From NCBI GenBank assembly GCA_022772725.1, contig JALEZT010000036.1:1-32792 (forward strand): a stretch of DNA of 32,792 nucleotides, in the 5' to 3' direction. Positions within the stretch are counted from its first letter, which is position 1. The number at the start of each line of letters is the position of its first letter. The translations under genes were made by a program, and so were the position numbers. The notes under the pieces were generated by a model. The model saw nothing but the letters and a program-made list of their open reading frames with translations. It had not been told where the DNA came from and did not search any database. Positions 6,665 to 32,792 of the stretch are shown in pieces. Origin of the DNA: Eubacterium sp. GTDB taxonomy: Bacteria > Bacillota > Clostridia > Oscillospirales > Acutalibacteraceae.

Positions 6665-7948
6665 ATGAATTTAGACAGAAGCCTGATAAAAAATCAGGCA
6701 AGAGCACTTATAAAAAATAAGGTTATGAAGCTGTTTTTAACCTTTTTTATCATCACGCTTTGCACAAATATAGCAGTTGAAATCACAACTGCCGTTACCT
6801 CCGGAAGGTCAGCGTGGAATTCAATCACATCAAATGAATATGACGATGCTTTCAGCGGCTACGGAGATAATGATTTCAATTATTATGATGATTTTGACCT
6901 TGATGAAAGCCAAAATGATTTTAACAGCTTTGGAGCAAATCTTGCCGTTCCTGCAAGGCTGAACACGGCATCGGCAGGAACCGAAGCAGTTACAAAAAGC
7001 GTTAAGGTCGTAACTTATGTTTTTGCGGTATTGCTTGCTCCTCTTTCGGTTGCCCTTGCGGCGTACTTTGTTGAATTTATAAGAGGCAGAGAATATGAGT
7101 TCGGCGCAGGCTTGAAAAGCATTTTTCATCAGGCGTTTTCGGTTAAATATTGGAATAAGGTTGGCGGTGCTTTGATTAAGTCCGCCTTGGAATATGCACT
7201 TTCGATTTGTTTAATTTTCCCCGGAGTTATCTTCCATTACAGCTCTTATTTCACATATCAGATTATGTGCGATTATCCCGAGCTTTCGCCGTGGCAGGCA
7301 ATTAAATTAAGCAAAAAAATGATTGAGGGCAACAGAACAGAGCTTTTCGTTCTTGATTTAAGCTTTATACCGTGGTATTTGCTTTGCATCTTCGTTTTCC
7401 CGATTATTTATGTTATGCCTTATGTTCAAACAACTCAGGCACTTTATTACGAGAATTTCCGCCTTCGTGCACTTCAAACGGGCAGGGTTACAGAGGATGA
7501 TTTCCTCTCTGATGAGCAGAAGCTTCAAAAGTATTCAAACACAGACGCTCCGTTCGAAAACGGCGCAGAGCATACATACGGAAACGATTATTCTGCTTCG
7601 CCGAGCGCAAATCCAAGCGCACAGCCTCAGCAGAGCAATGCGGCTCAGCCGTCGTATTTTACTCCTGCCGTTCAGAATGTTCAGCAGCCTGCTTATTATA
7701 CGCCGACTATTCCGAAAAAGCCCAATCCCGAGCAGCCGGTTGATATTTACACTCCGATGACGGAGGATACTGTTAATCCTCCCGAAAAGGAGCCCGTTCC
7801 TCAAATTAAGGAGGCTGATGTTGTTCTCACTCAGCCCGAGGAGCCCATTACTCCCGAGCTTATCGAGCCACAGGACGCTTTTGTTGAGGAGCAGACGCCG
7901 AGAGAGCCGAAGCCGTTAACGGATGACGGCTCTGATGTTGACCTATAA
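6665..7948 (+). CDS. DUF975-family integral membrane protein with long Pro/Glu/Gln-rich C-terminal tail
   Basis: MNLDRSLIKNQARALIKNKVMKLFLTFFIITLC..., KYWNKVGGALIKSAL..., LIFPGVIFHYSSYFTYQIMCDYPELSPWQAIKLSKKMIEGNRTELFVLDLSFIPWYLL: DUF975 pattern. ATG at 6665 is preferred to the TTG at 6635. Confidence 0.85.
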   Translation: MNLDRSLIKNQARALIKNKVMKLFLTFFIITLCTNIAVEITTAVTSGRSAWNSITSNEYDDAFSGYGDNDFNYYDDFDLDESQNDFNSFGANLAVPARLNTASAGTEAVTKSVKVVTYVFAVLLAPLSVALAAYFVEFIRGREYEFGAGLKSIFHQAFSVKYWNKVGGALIKSALEYALSICLIFPGVIFHYSSYFTYQIMCDYPELSPWQAIKLSKKMIEGNRTELFVLDLSFIPWYLLCIFVFPIIYVMPYVQTTQALYYENFRLRALQTGRVTEDDFLSDEQKLQKYSNTDAPFENGAEHTYGNDYSASPSANPSAQPQQSNAAQPSYFTPAVQNVQQPAYYTPTIPKKPNPEQPVDIYTPMTEDTVNPPEKEPVPQIKEADVVLTQPEEPITPELIEPQDAFVEEQTPREPKPLTDDGSDVDL

Positions 7949-13645: not shown

Positions 13646-15943
13646 ATGCTAAAAAAATCTTTAATCGCAAAAACAGACGCTGCTGCAAACGAAAAGCAGA
13701 TATACACAAACGCGTTTGTTCGTATAACCTATATAACCTCGCGCCTCATAAGAGTTGAGCGCGCAGACACGGCAACGGATTTGCCGAGCAAAACCGTTTG
13801 GTTTCGTAATTTTGAAGCAGGGGATATGAAGGTTACTCAAAGCGGCTCAAAAACCGTTGCCGAAACAGAGGATTGTATTTTCACAATTAAAAAGTATAAG
13901 CCTTACAGCGTGTATTTTAAAGACACGGGAAAAACCGAAATCTTTTCACGGCAGAAGAATCTTAAAGGCACAAGGCGCACTCTTGATATGACCTACGGCA
14001 AGGTGTCCTTAGAGGACGGTATTATTACCGAAAAGGGCGCATATTTGCTTGACGACAGCAAAACGATGCTTATTGATGAAAACGGAATGTTTGCTCCGCG
14101 CAGAGCGGGCGCAAGCGATTATTATGCGTTTGCTTACGGAAAAAATTACCGTGAAACAATTAATGCTTTTTATAAAATCAGCTCGCCCGTGCCGATTATT
14201 CCGCGCTTTGCGCTCGGCGTTTGGTGGAGCAGATACCACGCCTACACCCAGCAGGAATACCTTGATTTAATGCAAAGATTTGCCGATGAGGATATACCGC
14301 TCACAGTTGCAACGGTTGATATGGATTGGCACTGGGTTAAGGATATAGATAAAAAATTCGGTGTTAAATACGGCGGCTGGACGGGATATTCCTGGAACAC
14401 GGAGCTTTTCCCCGATTATAAGGAATTTTTAAGAAGGCTCAAGGAGCAGAATTTACATATAACGCTCAATCTTCATCCGGCCGACGGCATTCATTCCTAT
14501 GAGGATATGTATTCCGATATGGCAAAGGCGCTCGGCGAAAATCCCGAGGAAAAGAAAACTGTTGAGTTTAAATGCTCAAGCCCTGAATTTTGGAATGCGT
14601 ATTTTGATATTCTTCATAAGCCGTATGAAAAGGACGGCGTTGATTTTTGGTGGATAGATTGGCAGCAGGGCAAAAAAAGCGATGCTGAGGGGCTTGATCC
14701 GCTTGAAGCGCTTAATCATTATCATTATCTTGATAATGCCGAAAACGGAGAAATTCCGCTCATTCTTTCAAGATATGCAGGCCTCGGCTCACACCGCTAT
14801 CCGCTTGGCTTTTCGGGAGACACGGCGATTAATTGGAGGGTGCTTGATTTTCAGCCGTATTTCACGGCAAACGCCGCAAACGCGGCTTACGGCTGGTGGA
14901 GCCACGATATAGGCGGTCATCATCAGGGTTACAGAGATGACGATTTGTATATGCGCTGGCTTGAATTCGGCGTTTTCTCTCCGATAATGAGGCTTCATTC
15001 AACGGCAATGGAATTTCTCGGCAAGGAGCCGTGGAAGTATAAAGCGGATATTTATCATTTTGCAAAGGAATGGCTTCGCCTGCGCCACCGCCTTATTCCG
15101 TATATTTTCACTATGGACCACAGAGCGCACACAGACGGCATTGCCCTTTGCGAGCCTATGTATTATTCATATCCCGAAAACAAAAATGCTTATAATGTTA
15201 AAAATCAGTATATGTTCGGAAGTGAGCTTATGGTTTGCCCCATAACCTCTCCTCAGCACAGGGATATCAATAAGGGAAGCGTTGAGGCGTGGATACCCGA
15301 GGGCAGATGGGTTGATATTTTCACGGGTCAGGCATATTCGGGCGAGCAGAGAATAGCTCTTTTCAGAGATATAAACACAATCCCCGTCCTTGCAAGAGAG
15401 GGAGCAATCATTCCTCTTTCGGCTGATGAGGGCAACACCTGCGAAAACCCCGAAAGCCTTGAAATATGGGCGTTTACGGGCAACGGCAGCTTCTGCCTTA
15501 TTGAAGATAACGGCAAAACGAATTGCGAGGAGCATAAGGCACTGACGGAGTTTAATATCGCCTTTGACGGCTCAAAGCTAACCTTTACCGTTAATAAAGC
15601 AGAGGGCGATTTATCTGTTGTTCCGCAGAAAAGAAATTATAAAATTCTTGTTAAAGACGCTGTTAAAAACGGCAAAATGCTCGTGCTTGAAATCAACGGC
15701 GCAGATATAAACGAAGCGCATACGGCTTGTGCCGAAAATGTCAGCAGGGCAGAGAAGCAGGCGCCGTTTGACGCGGTTGTTGATATTTTCTCGCGCTGGC
15801 AGGAAAAAACAAGCACAAAATACTTTGCATATAAGCCATTTGAGAATAAAAAAACAGAGGAGGAAATCAGCCGTGCGCTGAAAAAAGCCTCTCTTCCCGA
15901 TACCGTGCGCGGCGTCTTGGAGGAATATCTCTCACAAGAATAA
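13646..15943 (+). CDS. GH31 family alpha-glucosidase/alpha-xylosidase-like glycoside hydrolase
   Basis: FALGVWWSRYHAYTQQEYLDLMQRFADEDIPLTVATVDMDWHWV, GVDFWWIDWQQG nucleophile region, RYAGLGSHRYPLGFSGDTAINW, MRLHS. ATG 13646 follows AGAGGGA; an in-frame ATG also exists at 13619. Confidence 0.93.
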   Translation: MLKKSLIAKTDAAANEKQIYTNAFVRITYITSRLIRVERADTATDLPSKTVWFRNFEAGDMKVTQSGSKTVAETEDCIFTIKKYKPYSVYFKDTGKTEIFSRQKNLKGTRRTLDMTYGKVSLEDGIITEKGAYLLDDSKTMLIDENGMFAPRRAGASDYYAFAYGKNYRETINAFYKISSPVPIIPRFALGVWWSRYHAYTQQEYLDLMQRFADEDIPLTVATVDMDWHWVKDIDKKFGVKYGGWTGYSWNTELFPDYKEFLRRLKEQNLHITLNLHPADGIHSYEDMYSDMAKALGENPEEKKTVEFKCSSPEFWNAYFDILHKPYEKDGVDFWWIDWQQGKKSDAEGLDPLEALNHYHYLDNAENGEIPLILSRYAGLGSHRYPLGFSGDTAINWRVLDFQPYFTANAANAAYGWWSHDIGGHHQGYRDDDLYMRWLEFGVFSPIMRLHSTAMEFLGKEPWKYKADIYHFAKEWLRLRHRLIPYIFTMDHRAHTDGIALCEPMYYSYPENKNAYNVKNQYMFGSELMVCPITSPQHRDINKGSVEAWIPEGRWVDIFTGQAYSGEQRIALFRDINTIPVLAREGAIIPLSADEGNTCENPESLEIWAFTGNGSFCLIEDNGKTNCEEHKALTEFNIAFDGSKLTFTVNKAEGDLSVVPQKRNYKILVKDAVKNGKMLVLEINGADINEAHTACAENVSRAEKQAPFDAVVDIFSRWQEKTSTKYFAYKPFENKKTEEEISRALKKASLPDTVRGVLEEYLSQE

Positions 15944-15960
15944 TTATATAGGGTAACAGA

Positions 15961-15996
15961 AAAAATCCGAAGCACCCTTTGCGCTTCGGATTTTTT
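15961..15996. terminator. bidirectional rho-independent terminator
   Basis: aaaaatccgaagc-accctttgc-gcttcggattttt. Confidence 0.8.
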
Positions 15997-16027
15997 CTTG
16001 TGTAAAATTTGCGTTTTGATTTAACAT

Positions 16028-16196
16028 GTCGGCGTGGAAACCGACCCCTACGAAATATCTTTCGGTTTTGCAAATCCCGTAGGGCAGGGGTTATTCCCCT
16101 GTTAGGGGAAATGTCTGCGAAGCAGACAAAAGGGTCTGCCGAATCGCAGATTTGCTCCTGCCGCAAAAACGGAGTGTCGAGGTCGCCACTCCCTAC
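16028..16196. repeat. modular palindromic intergenic repeat cluster including an expanded copy of the 13151-13208 unit
   Basis: gtcggcgtggaaaccgacccctac (16028-16051), then gtagggcagggg...ttgctcctgccgcaaaaacggagtgtcgaggtcgccactccctac (16079-16196), identical flanks to 13151-13208 but about 60 bp longer. Confidence 0.75.
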
Positions 16197-16238
16197 AAAA
16201 AAATTCCATTGAGGCTTTAATATTCCCTGTTTCCGCAA

Positions 16239-17279
16239 TCACCATTTATTATGAACTCTTTCGGCAAAAACAAGCCTGTTTTCAATTTTAATTTCCGTTG
16301 AATCGTCAAGAATTGCCGTTCCGGACATAAGGCCGAAAACCTGGTGCGGAATCATACATATCAATTTAAGGTCAAGCGGCGACTGCCTGTCAATAATCGG
16401 CTTAAAGGTCATTTCAAATCTGCCGTCGGAGGAGGTAAAGGTCCATTCGTCCGTGTATTGATATTCGCCGTTTTTCATCGGAATATTAAAGGTTATATCT
16501 TCAAGCTTGTGCGATTTACCGTTATAAAAAAGCATATTCTCGCTTGCGGCGGAGGTGTTGCCGAAGCCGTATCCAATGTTAAAGCCAAAGCGACTGCCGT
16601 CGTCAAGAATCATCTGACCCGAGCCCCAGTACCAAGTATTGTCGTAGGTCCAAACACCGCGTCCCCAGTCAAGCGTTGCAAGCGCCTTGTTTTTCTCGTT
16701 GAATTCGTATCTTTTGCCGTCAAATTCAAAAAAGCCGTTTGCTCGCATACAGTTGATTTTTTGGTTGTAATAAAAATGCTTATCCTTGTCAAAGGGGGTT
16801 GCAATAACCATGCTTTCCTCGGGCATATCGGTTAAGGTAATGTCAAAAACAAGGCATTTCTTTGTGTTGCAGTAATTGTCATAAGAGCCGTAAAGCCTGC
16901 GCTCTCTGCCGTTGTTAAGGAAATTCATATCGGCTGTGCCAACCTTGGCGCGAATGTCTCCCGCCTCGCTCGTCGGCGGCAGGTTTAATTTGCCAAGAGG
17001 AAGCAAGCCGATTTCGGAATCATTCATTTGAGTGGGCTTTTCGCCGAATTGAAGGAAGGAAACGGAAAGGCAGCTAACATATCCTGCGTCGGAAATTGTC
17101 AGGCAAAGTCCGTAATCCTGCGTACCTATGTAGTAATAATCCCATTCCTTAATTCTGATTTTCGGCGCGGTAATATCGTTTCGGTTGTATTGCCAAAGAA
17201 GCTTTTTTGCAAAGCCCGGCTCGGCAATGTTGCCGTTTGAATCAAGAAGCCTCTGCTTCGCCGTTATTTCGTGCTGCAT
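16239..17279 (-). CDS. DUF2804-family protein
   Basis: QHEITAKQRLLDSNGNIAEPGFAKKLLWQYNRNDITAPKIRIKEWDYYYIG..., DWGRGVWTYDNTWYWGSGQ, RFGFNIGYGFGNTSAASENMLFYNGK: DUF2804-like. Confidence 0.82.
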   Translation of the reverse strand: MQHEITAKQRLLDSNGNIAEPGFAKKLLWQYNRNDITAPKIRIKEWDYYYIGTQDYGLCLTISDAGYVSCLSVSFLQFGEKPTQMNDSEIGLLPLGKLNLPPTSEAGDIRAKVGTADMNFLNNGRERRLYGSYDNYCNTKKCLVFDITLTDMPEESMVIATPFDKDKHFYYNQKINCMRANGFFEFDGKRYEFNEKNKALATLDWGRGVWTYDNTWYWGSGQMILDDGSRFGFNIGYGFGNTSAASENMLFYNGKSHKLEDITFNIPMKNGEYQYTDEWTFTSSDGRFEMTFKPIIDRQSPLDLKLICMIPHQVFGLMSGTAILDDSTEIKIENRLVFAERVHNKW

Positions 17280-17296
17280 AAAAGCACCCCTCTCTT

Positions 17297-17791
17297 TTAA
17301 AGATAATTTTTAATAATTTTGTATTCGTCAATAAGTGCGTCAAGCCCGAAGCGCGCGTTTGCAGGGCTTGTTGAAGGCAGACAGATTGCCTCAATTCCCG
17401 TCTTTTCCTGCTGAAAGCGGCAGTAGTATTTGTATGCCGTTTTGCCGGTTGTGAATATCGCTTTTATATCTGCCGTGTCGGTAATAACACTTAAATCGTT
17501 AGGCGTTTCGTTTTTAACGGAGCAGTCAGAGGCACCGATAATATCGCATTGCGCAAGGGTGTCCCAAAGCGCAATTTTGTTTTTAAGCAAAAGGGAAGCT
17601 CGCTCGCCGTTTGTTGTCGGCAACGGCTCTCCAAGCACGGTGCTGATAACCCTCCAAAAGCGGTTTTGCGGATGCATATAATAAAATCCGTTTTCCCTCG
17701 ATTTCGGCGAGGGCATTGTTCCCAAAATCAGCACCCTGCTTTCAGCGTTGAAAACGGGCGGAATGCCGTGTTCAATATGTTCGTATCTCAT
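17297..17791 (-). CDS. DNA-deoxyinosine glycosylase / uracil-DNA glycosylase superfamily
   Basis: HGIPPVFNAESRVLILGTMPSPKSRENGFYYMHPQNRFWRVISTVLGEPLP, LWDTLAQCDIIGASDCSVK, LPSTSPAN: UDG-superfamily motifs. Confidence 0.88.
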   Translation of the reverse strand: MRYEHIEHGIPPVFNAESRVLILGTMPSPKSRENGFYYMHPQNRFWRVISTVLGEPLPTTNGERASLLLKNKIALWDTLAQCDIIGASDCSVKNETPNDLSVITDTADIKAIFTTGKTAYKYYCRFQQEKTGIEAICLPSTSPANARFGLDALIDEYKIIKNYL

Positions 17792-17871
17792 AATTTGATA
17801 TTATCACAAAGGCGGTAAAAATAAAAGAATTTTTCTAAAAATAAAAACTGAAAATAAAATAAAAAAAGATA

Positions 17872-17900
17872 TTGACATTGCAATAATTAAGTGATATTAT
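17872..17900 (+). promoter_or_regulatory. sigmaA promoter TTGACA-N17-TATTAT for tRNA-Asn
   Basis: Near-consensus hexamers, 17-bp spacer, ending 19 bp before the tRNA. Confidence 0.75.
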
Positions 17901-17919
17901 ATTAAAGCAATTGAGACAT

Positions 17920-17995
17920 TCCTCAATAGCTCAGTCGGTAGAGCATGCGGCTGTTAACCGCAGGGTCGTTGGTTCGAGTCCAACTTGGGGAGCCA
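17920..17995 (+). tRNA. tRNA-Asn (anticodon GTT, encoded CCA)
   Basis: TCCTCAA acceptor pairs TTGGGGA, D-arm AGCTCAGTCGGTAGAGC, anticodon loop CTGTTAA, T-arm GGTTCGAGTCC, encoded CCA at 17993-17995. Confidence 0.97.
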
Positions 17996-18000
17996 AAAGA

Positions 18001-18028
18001 AAAGCACTTCTTCGGAAGTGCTTTTTCT
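18001..18028 (+). terminator. terminator downstream of tRNA-Asn
   Basis: aaagcacttc-ttcg-gaagtgcttt + T-tract. Confidence 0.85.
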
Positions 18029-18125
18029 TTTTATTGCCATAACAATAAGTCAAAAATTATATAAGCGTTAAAATTAAAAAAATGAAGCCTCTGTATTATG
18101 CAAAATGATATATATTAAAATGATG

Positions 18126-18160
18126 AAAGCACCTGACTCAAAAATGCAATCAGGTGCTTT
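18126..18160 (-). terminator. terminator for the minus-strand gene 18211-18633
   Basis: aaagcacctga...tcaggtgcttt stem, T-rich on the minus strand. Confidence 0.65.
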
Positions 18161-18210
18161 GATTTTGATAAATTAATTTTACTTTTTAATTAACACAGCT
18201 AAAAAGAGTG

Positions 18211-18633
18211 TTATTCCGAAGCGAATGTAATAACATCTCCGGAGCTTGCATATCCGCCGTATATTCCTTCAATTTCAATCGGCTCAACGGCATTGAAAAT
18301 CAGATTTCTTGTGTTAACGGGTTTTCCGTTGGTGCTGACGGATAGTGTAATATGAGGAACAGGAATGTTTTTAATCATTTTTACGATTTCAGAATCGTTT
18401 GAATAAAGCTCAACCTTAACACCCTCGTTATCTTCGTTATATCCGTATCCTGTTATTATAATTTTGATTTTTTTACCGAAAAGTGATTCATCAACACTTT
18501 CGGGCTTGTAAGCAAAGGTTATATGCGGGTTGCGTATTTGCCTGGATAAACTAACCTTTCTTATTGAATTAACTTTTTTTTGAAGATCATGATAATTTAT
18601 AAAGCAACCTACATAAATAAAATTGTGTTTCAT
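18211..18633 (-). CDS. small 2H-phosphoesterase-like protein
   Basis: Two H-x-T motifs in similar context: NPHITFAYKP (His37) and VPHITLSVS (His94), as in 2H phosphoesterase/ligase-T folds; RBS-like GGAGGG upstream of ATG. Confidence 0.6.
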   Translation of the reverse strand: MKHNFIYVGCFINYHDLQKKVNSIRKVSLSRQIRNPHITFAYKPESVDESLFGKKIKIIITGYGYNEDNEGVKVELYSNDSEIVKMIKNIPVPHITLSVSTNGKPVNTRNLIFNAVEPIEIEGIYGGYASSGDVITFASE

Positions 18634-18749
18634 TTTGCCCTCCTGTTCATAAGTATTATAGGCAATTATTTAGAATTTTATTACCGTTGCCCTAAGACGA
18701 TGAAAAGCAATCGGAAACGTGTTTGAAATTTGCAGGCTTGGGTTGTTCT

Positions 18750-20105
18750 TCATTGCTTATGGTTTTTTGACGAGCTTCTTTTTGACTTGAATAAATTTTT
18801 AAAAACAAAGGCAACGGTTACGGTTATTCCCAATATGCAACATATTTGGATTACTTTTATTCCTATGCCTCCTAAAAACCATCCGAAAAAGGACTGAACA
18901 AAATCGAAGCTATCCACAAGTGCGGAAAAGAAGCTTAAAACAGAAAGCATAAGCAACGCCTTGTTAACATTGTCGTCTCTCTTTTTCTGTTCATTTTCTG
19001 CCGTTTCCCTTCTGATTTCGCCCAACGAAACAAGCGGCTCATGAACATCCTCATACATTTTTTTTAACGAAAATGCCTGAGCCATTCTATCATAAAGATT
19101 TTGATATTGCGGAACCTCCGTAATACAGGAGAAAACAAAATCGGTTTCAAATTCATATAGCTGATGGCGATATGTTTCAAGCGTTTCTAAGTTGTTGTAT
19201 GTTCCAATGCCTATTTTAGTTAAGAACATATACAAAACATATTTTTGATGAAGCAACAGTACATACATAAATAGGTATTGGGCATTAAAGTTTTCGTAAA
19301 AGGTTGAGCGAAGGAATTTTCCCCGTCCCATATCCGGACATGCAAGGCAAACGGCAGCCTCAGAAGATATTCCCCAAACTGTATCATTAGATGGAATATA
19401 GGTTTGTTCTTCGTCAAGCTTTTCATTTTCAACGTAAAGATAGCCGTCACTGTAGCATCGCTTTAAATAATAAAGCTCTTTTTTGTAGCTTTCCTGAGGT
19501 GCAACCTCAATATATGTAAGCAGATTGGCTCTTTCGGTAGTTGGGTTTGCATAATAAAAGTAATTCATTTCGGTTATATGAGAGAACTTTTTTGTAATGC
19601 TTTTTGATATTTCAAGCATCGTGGTGCAGGGTGCATCTTTGAAATCGAGACAAATATTTTCTCTTGAAACCTTTTTTAAATAATATTGAGCATTTGAAAT
19701 CCAAAACGGATCGTTTTTCTCAAAATATATTTTAAAAGCAAATATGCCGACTGTTGTGCTGAAACAGTATAATTGTATGCTTAAAATTTTAAAACGATAC
19801 TCCTCTTCTCTTTGCTTTGATTTACCCTCCTCAACAATTTCCTTGGTTGTAAACCAGTCGTCTTTCGTTGCAAGATTCAATTCGTTTCTGGCATAGTCGG
19901 TTACTTCATAATGAAAGCACTGGCAGGACTCTTTATCATTACTGTTAATTTTATCGGAAACATATTTGAGCATATAGAGAATTTTATCGTTTGTTTTTTT
20001 AAGAAGTATACTTTTGTCAAATTCATCAATAAGGCGTTTGAAATCAGCCGGATCAGAAAAATTAAACGGAATAAAAATGTAAGATGTATTTTTCAAATAG
20101 TCCAT
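18750..20105 (-). CDS. hypothetical protein: large soluble N-terminal domain plus two C-terminal TM segments (CorA-like topology)
   Basis: C-terminus LLMLSVLSFFSALVDSFDFVQSFFGWFLGGIGIKVIQICCILGITVTVAFVFKNLF, preceded by a helical coiled stretch; no GMN motif seen. Confidence 0.7.
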   Translation of the reverse strand: MDYLKNTSYIFIPFNFSDPADFKRLIDEFDKSILLKKTNDKILYMLKYVSDKINSNDKESCQCFHYEVTDYARNELNLATKDDWFTTKEIVEEGKSKQREEEYRFKILSIQLYCFSTTVGIFAFKIYFEKNDPFWISNAQYYLKKVSRENICLDFKDAPCTTMLEISKSITKKFSHITEMNYFYYANPTTERANLLTYIEVAPQESYKKELYYLKRCYSDGYLYVENEKLDEEQTYIPSNDTVWGISSEAAVCLACPDMGRGKFLRSTFYENFNAQYLFMYVLLLHQKYVLYMFLTKIGIGTYNNLETLETYRHQLYEFETDFVFSCITEVPQYQNLYDRMAQAFSLKKMYEDVHEPLVSLGEIRRETAENEQKKRDDNVNKALLMLSVLSFFSALVDSFDFVQSFFGWFLGGIGIKVIQICCILGITVTVAFVFKNLFKSKRSSSKNHKQ

Positions 20106-20402: not shown

Positions 20403-22394
20403 ATGGATCGATTTAAACGATGGATTTCCACAAAAGCATATAAAAGAATAAAGTTGTTTATTTTTGTGTTTATCGTTCTGTTCAATATACTTGCCATTTT
20501 TGTTGGAGGCTTGCTTCTTCATTTGGCATCGCCGGAATCCTTTAAAACAGTTGCCGCGGGCATGTGGCAGATTTTCACCGATATTTTAGATCCCGGTTTT
20601 TTAAGCAGTCACGCCCAAACATCCGCGGGCGGAACAACCTTTACGAAATCGGTTGAAGTTGTTGTTATTCTTGTTTGCATGGTAACCTTTACGGGCGCAA
20701 TCATAGGTTACATTTCAAATATGATAACATCAATAATTGAGAATTCAGTCGGCGGTCCGAAAAGAATGTATCTTAAAGACCATATTCTTATCCTTAATTG
20801 GAACAACAGAGCGGCCGGAATTATATCCGAATATTTATATACCGAGCTTTGCGAAGATGTTGTTGTGTTGACCACAAATGACAGAAACGAAGTTATCAAA
20901 GAAATTGAAGACAGCATTTTTGAAAGCGGATACGGAAAAAATCAGCGGCATGTTAATTTCGTGGTTAAGCAGGGAGAGCCGTTTTCTTATTCCGAGCTTG
21001 ATGCAATCTGCGTTAAACAGGCAAGAACAATCATTGTTTTATCGGATAAAAATCCGGAAGACGGAGAATTAAGAACTCTGAAAACAGTTATGATGGTTTC
21101 GCAAATGAACAGCCATAGAAATAATTGTTCTATTGTAGTTGAAACAGACAGCCAAAATATATATGAGCTTGTTGGAAGAATCAAAGAGAATAATTCAAAT
21201 GAAATAATACCGGCTTATCTTAATAAGCTTCTTGGAAAGCTGCTTGCTCAAACAGCTCTTCAACCAAAGCTCAATATTGTTTTTGCCGAGCTGTTTTCGC
21301 ATGGCGGCAATGAATTTTATCATATTCCGTTTGAAAGGCTTGAAGGTATTCGTTCCGATATGAGCGAAGAAGAAATTATTAACGAATATTTTAAAAGATA
21401 TAACAGAGCAATTCCTCTTACAACATCAAGAAGCTTTGATTCCGATAATTCCGAAAAACTGTTTTTGCTTTCGGGTAAAAAATCCCATGTTTTGAATTGC
21501 AGAGAAAAAGAATTAAATGACGGCAACATAAAGCATATTGAGTTTAAGGAAGAATATGTTGTCCCGAAAAAGATAATTGTTCTGTTGGGCAGCAACAGTA
21601 AAATGAAATACATCATAAACAGCTTTAAAGCCTATATTTCAAATTACGGGGAAGACAAGCTGACCGTATATCTGGTTGATGTTGAAGCTCATCTGAAAAA
21701 TATTCCCGACCATCCGTGCTTTAATAAAATATGTATCTCAGACAGATATGACGTTCTTGAAATCAGGAGGGTTATTAATTCGTTTGATTTGAGAGAAATA
21801 GACACTATTGTAATCCTGTCTGACGATATGGTTTCATCTGCGGAATATGATTCGGGCGCACTTATTTCATTAATTGATATTAACCGTGAAATTGATAAAA
21901 TTGAAAAATCCGAACGACCGGAAATTATTGTTGAAATATTGAATCCGAAAAATCACGAGATTGTCCAGCAATACAACATTGATAATGTTATTGTAAGTAA
22001 CAAATATATCAGTTCTATGGTTGCACAGCTTGGAGACGATAGCTCAATTTATGAGCTTATATATGATATATTAACCTTTGATAATGAGCTTGATGATTTT
22101 GAGCAGGTTTATTCGTCTAATAAAGAAAGTAAAGAGCTTTACATAAAACGATGCGGTGATTATTTCAAGGAAAGACAATGCTTTGATTCAATCGCGCAGC
22201 TGGTGTATTCAATATATATCAGCAGCGGGAAAACTCAAATACCGATCGGTGTAATATACGCAGATTCAAGTAAAAATAAGGGCTCGGTTGAGATGTTTGA
22301 AAGAACATATACCTTCCCCGATGATATTGATACAGAAAGAAAAATTGAACTTTGCGATGATGATTGTTTGATTATTTTTGCAAGTGATTTTTAG
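20403..22394 (+). CDS. CASTOR/POLLUX-like ion channel with tandem RCK-like domains
   Basis: N-terminal TM, pore-like WQIFTDILDPG...GGTTFTKSVEVVVILVCMVTFTGAIIGYISNMI, then KDHILILNWNNRAAGIISEY (RCK Rossmann), GEPFSYSELDAICVKQARTIIVLSDKNPEDGELRTLKTVMMV, SIVVETDS..., LAQTALQPKLNIVFAELFSHGGNEFYHIPF: arrangement typical of CASTOR/POLLUX. Confidence 0.85.
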   Translation: MDRFKRWISTKAYKRIKLFIFVFIVLFNILAIFVGGLLLHLASPESFKTVAAGMWQIFTDILDPGFLSSHAQTSAGGTTFTKSVEVVVILVCMVTFTGAIIGYISNMITSIIENSVGGPKRMYLKDHILILNWNNRAAGIISEYLYTELCEDVVVLTTNDRNEVIKEIEDSIFESGYGKNQRHVNFVVKQGEPFSYSELDAICVKQARTIIVLSDKNPEDGELRTLKTVMMVSQMNSHRNNCSIVVETDSQNIYELVGRIKENNSNEIIPAYLNKLLGKLLAQTALQPKLNIVFAELFSHGGNEFYHIPFERLEGIRSDMSEEEIINEYFKRYNRAIPLTTSRSFDSDNSEKLFLLSGKKSHVLNCREKELNDGNIKHIEFKEEYVVPKKIIVLLGSNSKMKYIINSFKAYISNYGEDKLTVYLVDVEAHLKNIPDHPCFNKICISDRYDVLEIRRVINSFDLREIDTIVILSDDMVSSAEYDSGALISLIDINREIDKIEKSERPEIIVEILNPKNHEIVQQYNIDNVIVSNKYISSMVAQLGDDSSIYELIYDILTFDNELDDFEQVYSSNKESKELYIKRCGDYFKERQCFDSIAQLVYSIYISSGKTQIPIGVIYADSSKNKGSVEMFERTYTFPDDIDTERKIELCDDDCLIIFASDF

Positions 22395-24118: not shown

Positions 24119-24409
24119 ATGACTGAAAATATGCTGCGAAGCAAACTGAAAGAAATCTATTCCAATGAAAAAGATATAGATGTTGCCATATTCAAAATCA
24201 GTTTATTTAAGCCGGAATTAATCAAGGCTTTTGTTAACTATGTTGAAACAGGAGATATTCCCGAAATCAGTGTTGATGGCAACACTATCAGCTCTATATC
24301 GAAAAAAACCTTTAAGAGCTGTACCGAGGCGTTTTTCATCATGGATAAACTTATGAAGGATGAGGAATACAGGAAGCTATTTCCCGGTATGTCCTTCGGT
24401 AAAAAATGA
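24119..24409 (+). CDS. hypothetical 96-aa protein
   Basis: ORF overlapping the next gene by ATGA (translational coupling). Confidence 0.65.
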   Translation: MTENMLRSKLKEIYSNEKDIDVAIFKISLFKPELIKAFVNYVETGDIPEISVDGNTISSISKKTFKSCTEAFFIMDKLMKDEEYRKLFPGMSFGKK

Positions 24410-26214
24410 TGGACTTTTTCAGTAATTCTTTTTCAGGCAAAAGCAGCAGTCAGCCGGTTTATTCAGATGCAGACGCTTATTCGGGAAGAAATCAAATTCT
24501 TGAAACACCGAGCTATTTAGATACCTTTAAATCCGAAAATTATAAAAACGCATCGGCAGAGGAAAGGATGTATGCTTTCCAGGCACTCGAACATGATATG
24601 GCGCAAAAACAGGGAAGAAAAGAGCGTCAAATTGTGTTTAAAGAAATGGAGCCCGATCTTTGTGGTTACTATACTGACGAAGATGATTGCATTTATTTAA
24701 ATTCTGCCTATATTTCCGATGAAGGGGCAATGAACAATCTGCAATATGACGGAATGGACACCGTAATTCACGAAGGAAGGCACGCAACGCAGGCGGATTG
24801 TATCAATGGCTATTGCGATCCACCAGATGATAAGCTTTCAAGAAATATGGAAGGAATTCGGAATTGTAATGTTCCGGGTGTTTATACCGAAGGAAAGAAA
24901 ACCGGAAATTATCGTTTGCTTCCTAATGAGTATGATGCTTTTAATTATGCTAATGATGTTATGAGCGGAGATATGTCGAAGCATTTTAATGATGATCCGG
25001 CATATAACGATTATGTTGCCTCCCAAAGAAAAAGCAACGAAGAAGCAGTTAATGATGCTTATAACAGTAGGGCGGCACAATATCTTCTTCAAGAAGACCG
25101 TTCAAACTATAATGATGCATTAAACAACATTAATACTGTTGCACAATTTCAAACGCTTGAAGAGGCATATCAAAATCCGCAATATTATCAAAATGCACAG
25201 CAACGGCTTGATGATGCAACAAACACATTAAGGGAACACAGTAATCCCGAAACGTTAGGAAATGAATATGCCAATGAGACGGCAGAAAAATACAGGTCAA
25301 TGGGAGCTGATGTTCTTCCTCCGTCGGATGCGCAAAGAGAAACGCAAAACAGACCTGACGGAGCAAAGGTTGAGCCTATAAATGAAGAACCGAAGTTAGA
25401 ATCAGATAATCAAAACAAAGAATCAAACGAAATTGAAAAAAATGAAGGCGAGAATGAAGAAAAGCCTTCGGAAGAGAGTGAATCAAAACTCGAAGAACCG
25501 CAGGGAAATCAAATCCCTGAAAATGCAGACAGTCCCGAGAATTCAATGCAAAAAAGCGAAAATCCCGAAAATGCACAAAGCACTGAGAATTCGGAAGAAA
25601 ACGGAGCAAAGCCCGAGCAGGAGGAGTCTGCAAAAGAAAATTCTCAAACAAACGAATCAATAGAACAGTCGGATAAAGAAACCGAACAGGATAAAAGCGA
25701 AGAAAACGCACAGAACGATTTTCGAGAACAGGAAAACGGCGCAAAGCCGGAAGAACCGCAGGAAAATCAAATCCCTGAAAATGCAGACGGTCCCGAGAAT
25801 TCAGTGCAAAAAAGCGAAAATCCCGAAAATGCAGAAAGCGCTGAAAATTCGGAAGAAAACGGCGCAAAGCCCGAGCAAAAAGAGCAGGAACAGGAAAGCC
25901 CTGAATCAGAACAGAACGGCGAAAAACCTGCCAAAGAAAATGGTGGAGAAGCACCAACTAAAGACAGTTCTGCCGAAAATGGTGCAAAGCCAAATCAGGA
26001 TAATTCTTTTGAAAACGGTACTAAAACAGAAAACAGTCAGGGTGCGAATGATTCGTCTAATGCTGCGCAGCCGTTGTCAGACGAACAAAGTGGAAATCAT
26101 GATCAGGACAAAGACCAAGGAGAAGAAAACAGTCCCCCTCCGGCGCAATCAGAAGATAACGAGACTTCTCCAAGCGGTCCTTCAAATGATAATTCTATGG
26201 ATATGGGAGAGTGA
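24406..26214 (+). CDS. HExxH (zincin-like) protein with long acidic, repeat-containing tail
   Basis: GMDTVIHEGRHATQADC (HEGRH, 24769-24783), downstream YRLLPNEYDAFNYANDVM; residues beyond about 300 are E/N/S/P-rich with an in-frame 43-aa duplication. Confidence 0.7.
   Translation: MMDFFSNSFSGKSSSQPVYSDADAYSGRNQILETPSYLDTFKSENYKNASAEERMYAFQALEHDMAQKQGRKERQIVFKEMEPDLCGYYTDEDDCIYLNSAYISDEGAMNNLQYDGMDTVIHEGRHATQADCINGYCDPPDDKLSRNMEGIRNCNVPGVYTEGKKTGNYRLLPNEYDAFNYANDVMSGDMSKHFNDDPAYNDYVASQRKSNEEAVNDAYNSRAAQYLLQEDRSNYNDALNNINTVAQFQTLEEAYQNPQYYQNAQQRLDDATNTLREHSNPETLGNEYANETAEKYRSMGADVLPPSDAQRETQNRPDGAKVEPINEEPKLESDNQNKESNEIEKNEGENEEKPSEESESKLEEPQGNQIPENADSPENSMQKSENPENAQSTENSEENGAKPEQEESAKENSQTNESIEQSDKETEQDKSEENAQNDFREQENGAKPEEPQENQIPENADGPENSVQKSENPENAESAENSEENGAKPEQKEQEQESPESEQNGEKPAKENGGEAPTKDSSAENGAKPNQDNSFENGTKTENSQGANDSSNAAQPLSDEQSGNHDQDKDQGEENSPPPAQSEDNETSPSGPSNDNSMDMGE
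25492..25878 (+). repeat. direct repeat pair 25492-25620 and 25750-25878 (129 bp each, offset 258 bp, in frame)
   Basis: EEPQGNQIPENADSPENSMQKSENPENAQSTENSEENGAKPEQ vs EEPQENQIPENADGPENSVQKSENPENAESAENSEENGAKPEQ. Confidence 0.9.
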
Positions 26215-27546: not shown

Positions 27547-29070
27547 ATGCTTTGTAAAGAATGTGGATGTCCGATTAATCCGGATGATCTTTTCTGCGGA
27601 AATTGCGGAGCTAAAATTGAAAAAGAGCAGACTGTTGAAGAATCAACAGAAAAGGAAGCGGTTAGTTGCGAAAATCCATTGCAGCAAGAAGAACCGGAAG
27701 CGAAGAAATTAAGTGCAAATAAAGAGGAGGGCTTTGATCCGTATAGCTATAAGCAGGGAGTCGAGTCTTCTGTTGAAGATAAATCAGAAGCTTCAGAAGT
27801 AAGCAAAGAAGAGAAGCAGGAAGAAACGCAGGAAAAAAAGCAGGAAGCACCAACCGAGCAATCTCAAACAAAAAAATCAGGCAAAAAATCAATAAAGATA
27901 AACAAAAAGGCATTAATTGCAATAGGAATTGCAATCATTGTAATAATCGCCGCAGCTGTGGGTGTAAATGCGGCTAAAACAAAGTTCGCACCTATAAAAA
28001 CCGCTGAAGAATTTGCCAATGATTTGTTTTCAAAAAATTGGAACAACGTTTACAATTTGATAAACATTGAAGAAAGCGAATTTGTGAATAAGGACACATT
28101 TATAGCTATGTGTGAAAACAACCCGAATTGCTTTGTCGTTGATTTGAACACAGCAACCTATTATGATGTTTATTGCACATCCGGCGGCGAACCGGGAATG
28201 GAAAGGTCTTTATTTACTATGTCGTGTGTAACCGAATATGGTGATGAAGACATTGAATTTGTAGTTGTAAAGGATAAAGACCGTTTTTGGTTTTTTGATA
28301 CATATAAAGTGGAGATTACATACAGCCCGATAGTATCATATAGGATTTATGCACCCTCCGATAGCTCAGTAAAGGTTAACGGAATAGAAATAGCTTATGT
28401 TGAAGAAACAGAGGAAGATTATGGCCATTATGGCATTGATAAAATTCTACCCGGTAAATATACACTTGAAGTTTCAAGGGAAAATTGCGAAAGCTATAGT
28501 GCAGATGTTACTGTTTATAATAGATTTGAAGCCGAAAGCGGAGAGGCTTATTGGGGAGATGAAGAGGATTACGAAATGGTGAACGGCGGAGGAACAGATA
28601 ACCGTTATTATGTTTCTCTTTATTATACAGATGAATATGTTAAATCTGTTGAGGATACCGCAATATCGCTTATGACTTCCATGTTGAAAAAAGCGGCGGC
28701 GTGTAATAGTGATGTTTCAGATATTCCGTTCACAGATGAAGCCGCAAAGCAATATGCAATAGAAGAACTTAATGAATCAATAGAAGATATTGATGTTAAT
28801 ACCGATGATTCATATTATACATACGGGGATATTTCTATTGACAGTTTAACAATAGACCGTGAATATGACGATATTATATATTGTTCATGGAATAATGATT
28901 ATACCTACTATTATGATTTTATTTTAAAGTATTCGTATTCATGGAACTATAACGGCTCTTATTATGAGGATTCAGGTGTTCGTGATCGCACCGCCTATCC
29001 GGATATCACAATTGTAAATGTTGACGGCGAATGGAAAATTGATGATATATCTTTTTATATGTATGTTTAG
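27547..29070 (+). CDS. zinc-ribbon, single-TM protein with extracytoplasmic TcaA-like domains
   Basis: CKECGCPINPDDLFCGNCGAKIE zinc ribbon; K/E-rich linker; TM KALIAIGIAIIVIIAAAVGV; extracellular APSDSSVKVNGIEI...LPGKYTLEVSRENCES. Confidence 0.72.
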   Translation: MLCKECGCPINPDDLFCGNCGAKIEKEQTVEESTEKEAVSCENPLQQEEPEAKKLSANKEEGFDPYSYKQGVESSVEDKSEASEVSKEEKQEETQEKKQEAPTEQSQTKKSGKKSIKINKKALIAIGIAIIVIIAAAVGVNAAKTKFAPIKTAEEFANDLFSKNWNNVYNLINIEESEFVNKDTFIAMCENNPNCFVVDLNTATYYDVYCTSGGEPGMERSLFTMSCVTEYGDEDIEFVVVKDKDRFWFFDTYKVEITYSPIVSYRIYAPSDSSVKVNGIEIAYVEETEEDYGHYGIDKILPGKYTLEVSRENCESYSADVTVYNRFEAESGEAYWGDEEDYEMVNGGGTDNRYYVSLYYTDEYVKSVEDTAISLMTSMLKKAAACNSDVSDIPFTDEAAKQYAIEELNESIEDIDVNTDDSYYTYGDISIDSLTIDREYDDIIYCSWNNDYTYYYDFILKYSYSWNYNGSYYEDSGVRDRTAYPDITIVNVDGEWKIDDISFYMYV

Positions 29071-29135
29071 TTTTTAATTCCGCAACTATATTTTGATTAT
29101 ATTTGCTATTTTTTATAAAAGGAGGCGTATCTTAT

Positions 29136-31622
29136 TTGAAAAAAACATTATCGAAAATAATCGCAATATCCCTATTACTTTCGATATTATTATCGGCGGT
29201 CAGCACCTGCTATGCAGAAACGGTATTGTCTGTAACCGATATCGGCAAGGAAAGCAAAAAGGTTATCAATATCGTTTATGACGATTCCGGAAGCATGGTT
29301 AACGGAAACGAAACGGATGTTTCAAACAGCTCAGCGTATGTTGCAACATGGGCACAGGCAAAATATTCGCTTGAAGCCTTTACGGCTATGATGAACGATG
29401 ATGATGTGCTGAATATTTATTGTATGTCAGGCGCAGGGAAATTGGCAAAAACTGTTAAAGGATCGGATCGTAAAGACGGAGTTGATGAAATCCATTCGGA
29501 TTTTAAAACGGGTGATTATAGCGTATTAACGCCGATTCAAACTCTAAAAGCGGCATACGAGGGACTTTCCGACAGCAAATATAACGATTGCGAAAAGTGG
29601 CTGGTTGTTTTAACCGATGGTGCCTTTACCGTGTCAAACAGCAGTGGCGAAAAGGTTAGCGATTCAGAGGTCAGCAGACTGTTGTCGTCCTATGGGTCGA
29701 GTCTTTCCGGACGGTTAATTTACATACCGATAGGAAGCAGTGCAAATGAGTACCAAGGCTCGGAGTTTAAAACCCTCAAAGCTTCAAGCGGAGAAGAAAT
29801 ATTAAGCCAAGTTAAAGCGGCAACAGAATATATTTATTCGGGAAGAGACAAAAAAGAAATTTCGGAAACCTCAATATCGCTCGGCGTATCAATGAAAAAA
29901 ATTATTGTTTTTGCTCAGGGCGCAGGGGTTGAAATTGAAGGAACAAGCAAAGGTCAAATATCAAATAATATTTCTGTTAAATACACAGACGCAGAAAACG
30001 CCGTAAAATATGATAATTCAAAAACGACATTCTCCGGCAATGAGGATAAAATTAAAACCGATAATTCTTTGCAAGGCGTTGTTGCAACAATTGAACCAAA
30101 CGGCGACTGCATAGAGCCGGGGCAGTTAAATATTTCTTTCGGTGATGTAACCCCTAAATCATATACAATTTATTATGAGCCCGCAGTTAAAGCATATTAC
30201 TCGCTTGAAAAGGATGGGGTAGAATACATATCAAGTGAAAATCCAACCGATGGAGGTTCACTCAATCCCGGAACATATAAGCTTACTGCTTATATAGCAG
30301 ATGCCTTCCAAAAAACAGAGGATTCAAAGCCTCTTGATGTGTCCGATGCACAGGAAATTCAAGATATAAACTTTGATCTAACATTAAGTGGAAGTGGCGT
30401 TGTCGGAGGTTCGCAAGCCTTTTCAACACAGGAGCTTAGAAACGGAGTAAATGTTGAATTGGAAAAAGGCGAAATAGAATGCGACGCTCAGGCTTCGATT
30501 CTTTACGGAAAGTATGCCGTTGATACAACCGCCTTATCCAATGCATTCGGCAATATAATTGTTAAAGACACTTATAGATTAGAGGTTTCGTATGAAAAGC
30601 CGACAGCAGATCTTTTGAGTTATCGCTTTAAGAAAACAAATTTCACTCTTCATTCATTAAAGAAAATTGATGATAAAGAGGATATGATTAAAGCAATTGT
30701 TACTTGCTATGACAACAACGGTAATAAGGTTGATATAACAGAAGAGCAATGGGCAACGGTTAACGCTCAAACGGTTAAGATCTATAACGGAGAAAAAACA
30801 AAGGTTCAATATGATCAAAACGCTTTTGATTTTCATGTTGAAAACGGTTGCGGAGTGTTTTATCTATGTCCTCAGTATTGGACGGAAAACGATAAAGCAG
30901 ACAAAGGAAAAACAACCCATACAAATTATTTGCATGGCAAGCGATTTTGCGAGGTTAGAACTGAATTGAATTTGGATATATCTGATTCGCTTGCATATTC
31001 AACCTTGGGAACCGAAGCAGCTAAAAAATCCACAACCTATGAAATTGCTCTATGTATTTTGCATACAATAGCAGCTGCGATAATTTTTATTATTATTATA
31101 GGTCTTATATTTAAGAAAAAGCTTCCTAAAACAAAGAGAGCAAAAGCAGAGCTTGACGGATACTATTATAAATCAATTGATGAGGACGGCAATGTTGTTT
31201 GGAGACCGGAGGATGAGCTCGGATCGGACAAATGGATTAGCATAGAGATCTCATCTTTCATAGACTTTATAAGCAGAATAGTGCCGTTTATGAGTCAAAG
31301 AGGCACTGTTAAGCTGCCGGGAGTTACAAATCTTAAAATTAAGGCAACACAGATGACCGGAAAAAGAACAAGGGTTCGATTGATGAATCCCCCATCTAAT
31401 TTTGAGAGCATAAACGGCTCGGAAGATATTGGGGATGGAAACCGATACATTAGAACCTCAAAGGGCTCTATAACTAAGGAAACTCTTGAGAATTTGAAAA
31501 AAAATCATAAAAAATATGAGTTTTCAATGACAGGCATTAGGTTTGGGTCAGATATGAATGACGGAACATTTGCGGCATACAAAGGTTTAAGCTTTATTAA
31601 AGAAAGGAAAAAGAGAAAATGA
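29136..31622 (+). CDS. secreted/membrane-anchored vWA-domain protein with C-terminal TM and cytoplasmic tail
   Basis: TTG start at 29136 behind AAAGGAGG; signal peptide KKTLSKIIAISLLLSILLSAVSTCYA; MIDAS VYDDSGSM (DxSxS, 29280-29297); TM IALCILHTIAAAIIFIIIIGLIF followed by a basic cytosolic tail. Confidence 0.85.
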   Translation: MKKTLSKIIAISLLLSILLSAVSTCYAETVLSVTDIGKESKKVINIVYDDSGSMVNGNETDVSNSSAYVATWAQAKYSLEAFTAMMNDDDVLNIYCMSGAGKLAKTVKGSDRKDGVDEIHSDFKTGDYSVLTPIQTLKAAYEGLSDSKYNDCEKWLVVLTDGAFTVSNSSGEKVSDSEVSRLLSSYGSSLSGRLIYIPIGSSANEYQGSEFKTLKASSGEEILSQVKAATEYIYSGRDKKEISETSISLGVSMKKIIVFAQGAGVEIEGTSKGQISNNISVKYTDAENAVKYDNSKTTFSGNEDKIKTDNSLQGVVATIEPNGDCIEPGQLNISFGDVTPKSYTIYYEPAVKAYYSLEKDGVEYISSENPTDGGSLNPGTYKLTAYIADAFQKTEDSKPLDVSDAQEIQDINFDLTLSGSGVVGGSQAFSTQELRNGVNVELEKGEIECDAQASILYGKYAVDTTALSNAFGNIIVKDTYRLEVSYEKPTADLLSYRFKKTNFTLHSLKKIDDKEDMIKAIVTCYDNNGNKVDITEEQWATVNAQTVKIYNGEKTKVQYDQNAFDFHVENGCGVFYLCPQYWTENDKADKGKTTHTNYLHGKRFCEVRTELNLDISDSLAYSTLGTEAAKKSTTYEIALCILHTIAAAIIFIIIIGLIFKKKLPKTKRAKAELDGYYYKSIDEDGNVVWRPEDELGSDKWISIEISSFIDFISRIVPFMSQRGTVKLPGVTNLKIKATQMTGKRTRVRLMNPPSNFESINGSEDIGDGNRYIRTSKGSITKETLENLKKNHKKYEFSMTGIRFGSDMNDGTFAAYKGLSFIKERKKRK

Positions 31623-32792
31623 GTACAGGAAAAACTTACGAAGAATTAATGATTGAAAGAAACGAAAGAGCTATTGCTCCCAATATTTTTATCGGCCTTG
31701 GCGGACAAGGCTGCAAGATGGTTGCTCAGCTTGCCAAAAAAGCAAAGGAAGAGCATAGCCCTGCCAAGTATCTTAGCTTTGTTGCTATTGATACGGATGT
31801 TAATGAGCTGAGAAAGATAAAAATGGTTGCAAACGAGGTTGTTACAGTTCAAACCTCTTCAAGAATGACAATCGGGGAATATCTTGAATATGACCATAAT
31901 GCAAGAAACAATTGGTTCCCGATAAATGACATTATTCTTGATAAAACTCCCAGTGAGGGCGCCGGCCAAATTCGTGCAATTTCTAATTTGGTTGCGCACA
32001 ACGCAATAAGAGAAGGCGAATTTACTGCTATAAACGACGCAATAGACGCCTTGTTCCCGTTGAGCGACGATGATTATGAGCAGTCCGTTCATGTTACAAT
32101 TATGGGAACTCTTGCCGGAGGAACCGGTTCGGGTCTTGTTTTGCCGGTTGCTCTTTATGTTAAAAATTACTTGGAGACAATCAGACAGCAGAAATCAGCT
32201 GTAATAAGAGGCTTCTTCATTTTGCCCGATGTTATGGAAAGTGTTATCACTAACGAGGTTGAAAGAAAGAATCAGTATTCAAATGCCTATGCTTCTCTTC
32301 GTGAAATTGATGCATTTATGAGACGCCCGTATGATGTTGGCCTCCAAAAGAGATATCCTGATTTAAAGGTTATTATCCCGAAGGTTGGCGGAGACGGCTA
32401 TGATGAGTTCAATAACGCACCGTTTAATTTCTGCTTCCTCTTCAATAAAATCAATAATAAGGGAACATCTATCACAAATAAAGATGACTTGCTTATGCAG
32501 GCAGTTGAATGTGTGTATGATATGTCGATTTCTCCGATTTGCACAAAGGTAAATTCACAGGAAGACAATATTATCAGAGAAAAAATCTCATCAGGAAACA
32601 GATCAAGCTATGCAGGTGCAGGCGCATCCAGACTTGTATATCCCTATAAAGACATTGTTGAATATGTTGCACTTCATTGGGCAAAGAATTCAATATCCCA
32701 AAAATGGCTTGAAGGCGATCAATATATTATTGACCAACAAAAAGACAGAAATGAGGCAATGAACAGCGGTTCACTTGTTGATGCATTTGATG
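31619..32792 (+). CDS. tubulin/FtsZ-superfamily protein (Tubulin_2-like), 3'-truncated by window end
   Basis: ATG at 31619 overlaps the vWA TGA. Frame reads MSTGKTYEELMIERNERAIAPNIFIGLGGQGCKMVAQLAKKAKEEHSPAKYLSFVAIDTDVNELRK...SEGAGQIRAISNLVAHNAI...VHVTIMGTLAGGTGSGLVLPVALYVKNYLE...: FtsZ-like GxGGxG start and GGTGSG (32117-32134) nucleotide-binding signature; open to window end. Confidence 0.88.
   Translation, partial: MSTGKTYEELMIERNERAIAPNIFIGLGGQGCKMVAQLAKKAKEEHSPAKYLSFVAIDTDVNELRKIKMVANEVVTVQTSSRMTIGEYLEYDHNARNNWFPINDIILDKTPSEGAGQIRAISNLVAHNAIREGEFTAINDAIDALFPLSDDDYEQSVHVTIMGTLAGGTGSGLVLPVALYVKNYLETIRQQKSAVIRGFFILPDVMESVITNEVERKNQYSNAYASLREIDAFMRRPYDVGLQKRYPDLKVIIPKVGGDGYDEFNNAPFNFCFLFNKINNKGTSITNKDDLLMQAVECVYDMSISPICTKVNSQEDNIIREKISSGNRSSYAGAGASRLVYPYKDIVEYVALHWAKNSISQKWLEGDQYIIDQQKDRNEAMNSGSLVDAFD

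Follow-up and report, generated by a model that had tools for sequence, protein, structure and literature searches.

A truncated gene at the end of a Eubacterium sp. contig encodes the front part of a Tubulin_2/FtsZl1 protein with a near-constant peptidase partner

At the end of a 32,792-nucleotide stretch of Eubacterium sp. DNA (hereafter the window), positions 31619 to 32792 of the forward strand hold a real gene, which encodes the front part of a protein of a known family. Its product belongs to the FtsZl1 family of Makarova and Koonin 2010 (PMC2875224), the work to which a 2023 survey linked the FtsZ-like proteins with a Tubulin_2 domain (PMC9871819). FtsZl1/Tubulin_2 is a known and experimentally unstudied relative of FtsZ and tubulin. 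Three observations are new with respect to the main text of the 2010 paper: the structural model shows elements resembling H7, T7, H8 and S7 of FtsZ, together with an SxEDN motif that is invariant in the subfamily but varies within Tubulin_2 at large; the operon carries a near-constant peptidase partner; and a long helical insertion may interrupt the FtsZ-type C-terminal domain. We tentatively favor the reading of an accessory Tubulin_2/FtsZl1 GTPase, part of a membrane-linked, GTP-dependent assembly that would couple an envelope vWA sensor to a protease (probability of roughly 0.45).

A gene cut off by the assembly

The gene is truncated by the assembly because the window is an entire contig (C64), in a draft genome of 199 contigs and 1.62 Mb. 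From the ATG at 31619, a total of 391 codons run without a stop to the last base of the contig, and the gene is missing from the track of closed ORFs only because no stop codon precedes the contig end; the preliminary description of this DNA had read the open frame, and its absence from the track, correctly. The ATG overlaps the stop codon of an upstream vWA gene as ATGA, the arrangement of translationally coupled genes. A tight gene run extends from a terminator-like hairpin onwards, and the features of the locus are as follows:

20403 to 22394, + strand: RCK/Castor-like channel protein, upstream; linked homologues occur in 7 of 80 loci and also in L040
24047 to 24075, + strand: strong terminator-like hairpin with a stem of 13 bp, ahead of the run
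24119 to 24409, + strand: short ORF of 96 aa, with which the run probably begins
24406 to 26214, + strand: HExxH-motif protein (HEGRH) with a Glu-rich linker, 139 bp of which are 82% identical to contig C109
26211 to 27533, + strand: VirD4/TraD-like ATPase, same gene run
27547 to 29070, + strand: zinc-ribbon-like protein with one TM helix, same gene run
29103 to 31622, + strand: vWA-domain membrane protein with a signal-like N-terminus, MIDAS motif DDSGS and a single TM helix toward the C-terminal end; the start codon is uncertain
31619 to 32792, + strand: Tubulin_2/FtsZl1 gene, N-terminal 391 codons (Pfam, AlphaFold, Foldseek)
31688 to 31717, + strand: T1-like loop FIGLGGQGCK (aa 24-33); G28, G29 and G31 invariant in 67 of 67 sequences
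31952 to 31984, + strand: T3-like loop SEGAGQIRAIS (aa 112-122); G114, A115, Q117, R119 and S122 invariant
32114 to 32134, + strand: T4-like loop AGGTGSG (aa 166-172); GGTGSG invariant in 67 of 67 sequences
32480 to 32527, + strand: H7-like helix (aa 288-303) of the AlphaFold model; the element assignment is an interpretation
32555 to 32569, + strand: SQEDN (aa 313-317), candidate T7/H8 acidic motif, conserved in the subfamily

Neither the VirD4/TraD-like ATPase nor the HExxH protein, both within the run, had a BLASTP match in 80 related loci, and they may be local additions. PADLOC returned HerA/mad8-like matches for the VirD4-like ATPase only.

Family and relation to canonical FtsZ

In Pfam, residues 23-359 match Tubulin_2 (PF13809) with an E-value of 4e-73 and a score of 247 bits where the cut-off is 27, a match far above chance, while the general Tubulin family scores slightly below its cut-off. 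The gene had initially been proposed as a divergent paralogue of the Tubulin_2/FtsZ-like type and not as canonical FtsZ, a proposal that agrees with the Tubulin_2 match, the predicted fold and the existence of a separate canonical FtsZ in the same genome. The latter lies on contig C171 and carries the sole FtsZ_C match of the genome, so that canonical FtsZ is ruled out as the identity of the window gene. Both proteins share the GTPase fold and the T1 and T4 glycine loops, but the window protein has no FtsZ_C match, carries SxEDN instead of the NxDxxD T7 motif and is about three times longer. As in FtsZl1 (PMC2875224), an N-terminal FtsZ-like domain precedes a coiled-coil and helical C-terminal part, a vWA gene is a neighbor and a canonical FtsZ is found alongside.

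At the level of sequence, the relation to proteins of known structure is a distant one. When PDB chains were searched by sequence, none scored above noise for the Tubulin_2 family of the window gene, and hhalign against FtsZ aligned the N-terminal half only, with a probability of 11%. Scanning genome contigs with a single sequence retrieved no relatives, and an alignment query retrieved hundreds.

Predicted fold and motifs of the GTPase domain

An AlphaFold model calculated from the window fragment and 66 homologues (pLDDT 85.2, pTM 0.81) predicts the fold of FtsZ, CetZ, TubZ and tubulin. Among the Foldseek matches listed, 50 of 50 PDB entries were FtsZ, CetZ, TubZ, PhuZ or tubulin (best E-value of 2.3e-6), and the plain Rossmann dehydrogenase or other fold that would have spoken against the original proposal did not appear. 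TM-scores of about 0.3-0.5, below 0.5 in nearly all matches, show a strong divergence of the model from known structures. The solved structures of CetZ and TubZ are among its best fold matches, but they share only 10-14% identity with the window protein and lack the long C-terminal part.

The elements of the model run S1-H1-S2-H2-S3-H3-S4-H4-S5-H5-S6-H7-H8-S7-H9 and follow the FtsZ order through S6. S6 is followed by one helix at 288-303 and, after a short loop, by another at 309-324; then a strand and a long helix complete the model. We read these elements, the loop included, as H7, T7, H8, S7 and H9, a naming that is our interpretation. The H7-like helix is short (16 residues), and S7 and H9 are present already in the fragment model. 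These H7-, T7-, H8- and S7-like elements bear on the statement in the main text of the 2010 paper that T6-H7 was unidentifiable in FtsZl1 (PMC2875224), whereas T6-H7-like elements can be seen in the model.

The two glycine motifs pointed out at the start, FIGLGGQGCK and GTLAGGTGSGL, are present as claimed, the second as the T4 equivalent, which reads AGGTGSG versus GGGTG[ST]G; SEGAGQIRAIS is likewise confirmed. The expected T7-loop Asp is a more complex case. The helix after H7 does carry SxEDN, with S313, E315, D316 and N317 invariant in 67 of 67 subfamily sequences, but this is not NxDxxD and it does not hold throughout Tubulin_2: EDN is kept in four of the distant members (L019, L047, L048 and L049), ESN is found in two (L014 and L050), and the motif is lost in several others. 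Because distant members vary or lack it, SxEDN is ruled out as the universal T7 of Tubulin_2 and is a subfamily feature, a candidate catalytic motif only.

The probable rest of the gene

Within the same genome, the C-terminal part of a relative matches only the start of contig C109 (L057), where an 827-codon continuation without a start codon precedes three further ORFs of that strand, two for membrane proteins (636 and 1159 aa) and one for a zinc-peptidase-like protein (391 aa). In the family alignment, with L068 as a reference (1135 aa), the window part reaches position 392 and the part on C109 begins at 401; the two contigs show no base overlap, and a gap of a few codons lies between them. 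A segment of 139 bp in the window (25613-25749) is 82% identical to C109 positions 7665-7802, which fits a single locus. We infer a C64-C109 join that is strongly suggested, short of proof, and the full-length protein would have roughly 1,225 aa if the join is right. The shared segment encodes a Glu-rich linker and lies in two different proteins of the locus. Further along C109 (about 14900-20000), the G+C content climbs from about 0.39 to 0.57 at the point where genes for HypA/HypB-like proteins and an Fe-S oxidoreductase start, a possible sign of a chimeric contig or of a foreign segment.

The preliminary description had stated that the lack of any C-terminal domain in the full-length gene would count against its assignment. 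Full-length relatives do have a long C-terminal part, and an extended coiled-coil and helical region follows the GTPase domain both in the C109 continuation, if joined as above, and in the model of L068. This full-length model (pLDDT 88) is nearly all helical from about 346 to 773, and then shows a strand-helix-strand-strand arrangement at 790-840 (strands 790-796, 820-823 and 830-840), and its S7 is longer, with 10 residues against 3 in the fragment model. Because of this strand order and the lengthening of S7, a helical insertion of about 450 residues may interrupt an FtsZ-type C-terminal activation domain, whose remaining strands could be those at 790-840. We keep this split as a hypothesis because Foldseek, when given the full-length model, left its second half unaligned to the FtsZ C-terminal domain.

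A conserved operon with membrane proteins and a putative peptidase

Partner genes were counted by BLASTP over 80 loci from public genomes, a count that is lowered where contig ends cut the loci. The vWA protein was found in 71 of them, the C-terminal part of the tubulin-like protein in 72, a membrane protein corresponding to the 636-aa ORF (p636) in 63, a second membrane protein corresponding to the 1159-aa ORF (p1159) in 58, and a zinc-peptidase domain in 51. The order vWA, tubulin-like protein, p636 and p1159 with peptidase is constant across these loci and occurs in several phyla. In most Bacillota, p1159 and the peptidase are fused in one protein of about 1,350-1,570 aa, and they are separate ORFs in Actinomycetota and in the genome of the window. 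A crude hydropathy scan predicts TM helices flanking the vWA domain, a pair in p636 and four N-terminal ones in p1159, a layout that is identical in L068 and L078 and common to Bacillota and Actinomycetota. The MIDAS residues of the vWA protein are invariant in its homologues, and HExxH is retained in 49 of the 51 peptidase-bearing loci. No usable relative emerged when the PDB was searched with profiles of p1159, p636 and the vWA protein.

This near-constant peptidase-bearing membrane protein differs from FtsZl1 as described in the 2010 main text, where a protein kinase, a P-loop GTPase or OmpA were frequent partners, neither constant nor defining (PMC2875224); none of the three was found among the operon proteins that we scanned. 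In a Treponema homologue of p1159 (L112 15716-20797), the C-terminal zinc peptidase is absent and a subtilase domain with D, H and S catalytic motifs is present, an exchange that suggests proteolysis as an output of the operon.

Some loci show further peculiarities. An uncharacterized coiled-coil-like protein with the signature IDEYxLKI...NVLTIEAPPGYRVNLNRLRxWAM follows the operon in 15 loci (L066 12171-13451 and 14 others). In the complete genome of Allobaculum sp. Allo2 (L117), the operon is broken into several shorter frames, possibly through decay or sequencing errors.

Distribution

In the order to which the organism belongs, 21 of 297 genomes have a match at E<=1e-15, and within the genus, any Tubulin_2 occurs in 5 of 80 genomes. 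The tree mixes sequences from Bacillota, Actinomycetota, Spirochaetota and Pseudomonadota, and the same-genus copies placed there branch apart from the window copy. Horizontal transfer is likely, in a tree limited by long branches and possibly by mis-binned metagenome assemblies.

Genomes of the same genus (L015, L016, L017 and L018; G029, G028 and G001) carry a different Tubulin_2 type; two matches lie near each other in G028 and G029, and in G001 the tubulin gene has GAP1-M at a distance of about 10 kb. A pair of vWA and tubulin-like genes is also present in a human faecal GenBank scaffold labelled "Bacteriophage sp." (L051, MT836542.1), which is probably bacterial DNA. A phage origin is ruled out: this unverified scaffold is the only phage match, and the other genes of the window are ordinary bacterial ones.

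Possible functions

In the reading that we favor, the tubulin-like protein would bind GTP and form a scaffold or filament at the cytoplasmic side of the membrane. An envelope signal would be reported, or the scaffold anchored, by the vWA protein, which has an extracytoplasmic metal-dependent domain, a single TM helix and a cytoplasmic tail. Assembly would be linked through the two partner membrane proteins to the zinc-peptidase domain, and this domain would cleave a target. The short H7-like helix, the non-universal acidic motif, the mostly low TM-scores (<0.5) and the FtsZ profile alignment confined to the N-terminal half all speak against it. A bolder version, which we regard as rather improbable, holds that FtsZl1 keeps a complete FtsZ fold with a helical insertion of about 450 residues between H9 and S8 of the C-terminal activation domain, that SxEDN serves as the T7/H8 catalytic acid in the present subfamily and that the polymer gates the membrane-bound protease when the extracytoplasmic vWA sensor responds. 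If true, a cytoskeletal filament would control proteolysis across a membrane.

Other explanations have to be weighed against this one. Makarova and Koonin proposed membrane remodelling (PMC2875224), in which the tubulin-like protein would bend or organize the membrane, the vWA and membrane proteins would anchor it and the peptidase would be regulatory. The family and the vWA partner are the same as in their work, and the vWA protein, p636 and p1159 all have predicted TM helices, but the near-constant association with a peptidase is left unexplained and we consider this role unlikely here. The invariance of the T1, T3 and T4 glycine loops across 67 sequences suggests retained nucleotide binding, and this weighs against a degenerate, non-polymerizing scaffold that would keep the GTPase fold only as a protein-binding platform. 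A short H7-like helix, a non-canonical T7 and very large helical additions could be expected from such a scaffold, to which we nevertheless give a slim chance.

A conflict system (anti-phage or suicide), as put forward for the GAP1-N2 systems by Kaur et al. 2020 (PMC7159879), would turn invasion into assembly and then into protease activation. The linkage of tubulin and vWA genes was published for those systems, which resemble the present one in a tubulin domain with a helical or coiled-coil C-terminus, a membrane vWA protein and their occurrence in Firmicutes and Actinobacteria (PMC7159879); a peptidase output, the patchy presence in the genus and the mixed-phylum tree would also suit a conflict role. 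However, GAP1-M (PF20014) was not found in the genome, which is 89.8% complete, nor in the order-level relatives tested, the core proteins match none of the PADLOC defence models, and the neighbors are not consistently defence genes. The present locus also has one tubulin gene instead of two and other partner proteins. Membership in the GAP1-N2 systems is unsupported, and a conflict role in general seems doubtful to us.

The interest of this gene lies in its structural clues to an open question on the FtsZl1 fold and in the near-constant protease partner. The models suggest that the missing FtsZ elements exist in the family in diverged and interrupted form, and the analysis names two residues, E315 and D316, as well as a partner enzyme. 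Among the carriers of the operon are named isolates such as Faecalicatena contorta and a Microbacterium strain, and this brings the question within reach of bench work.
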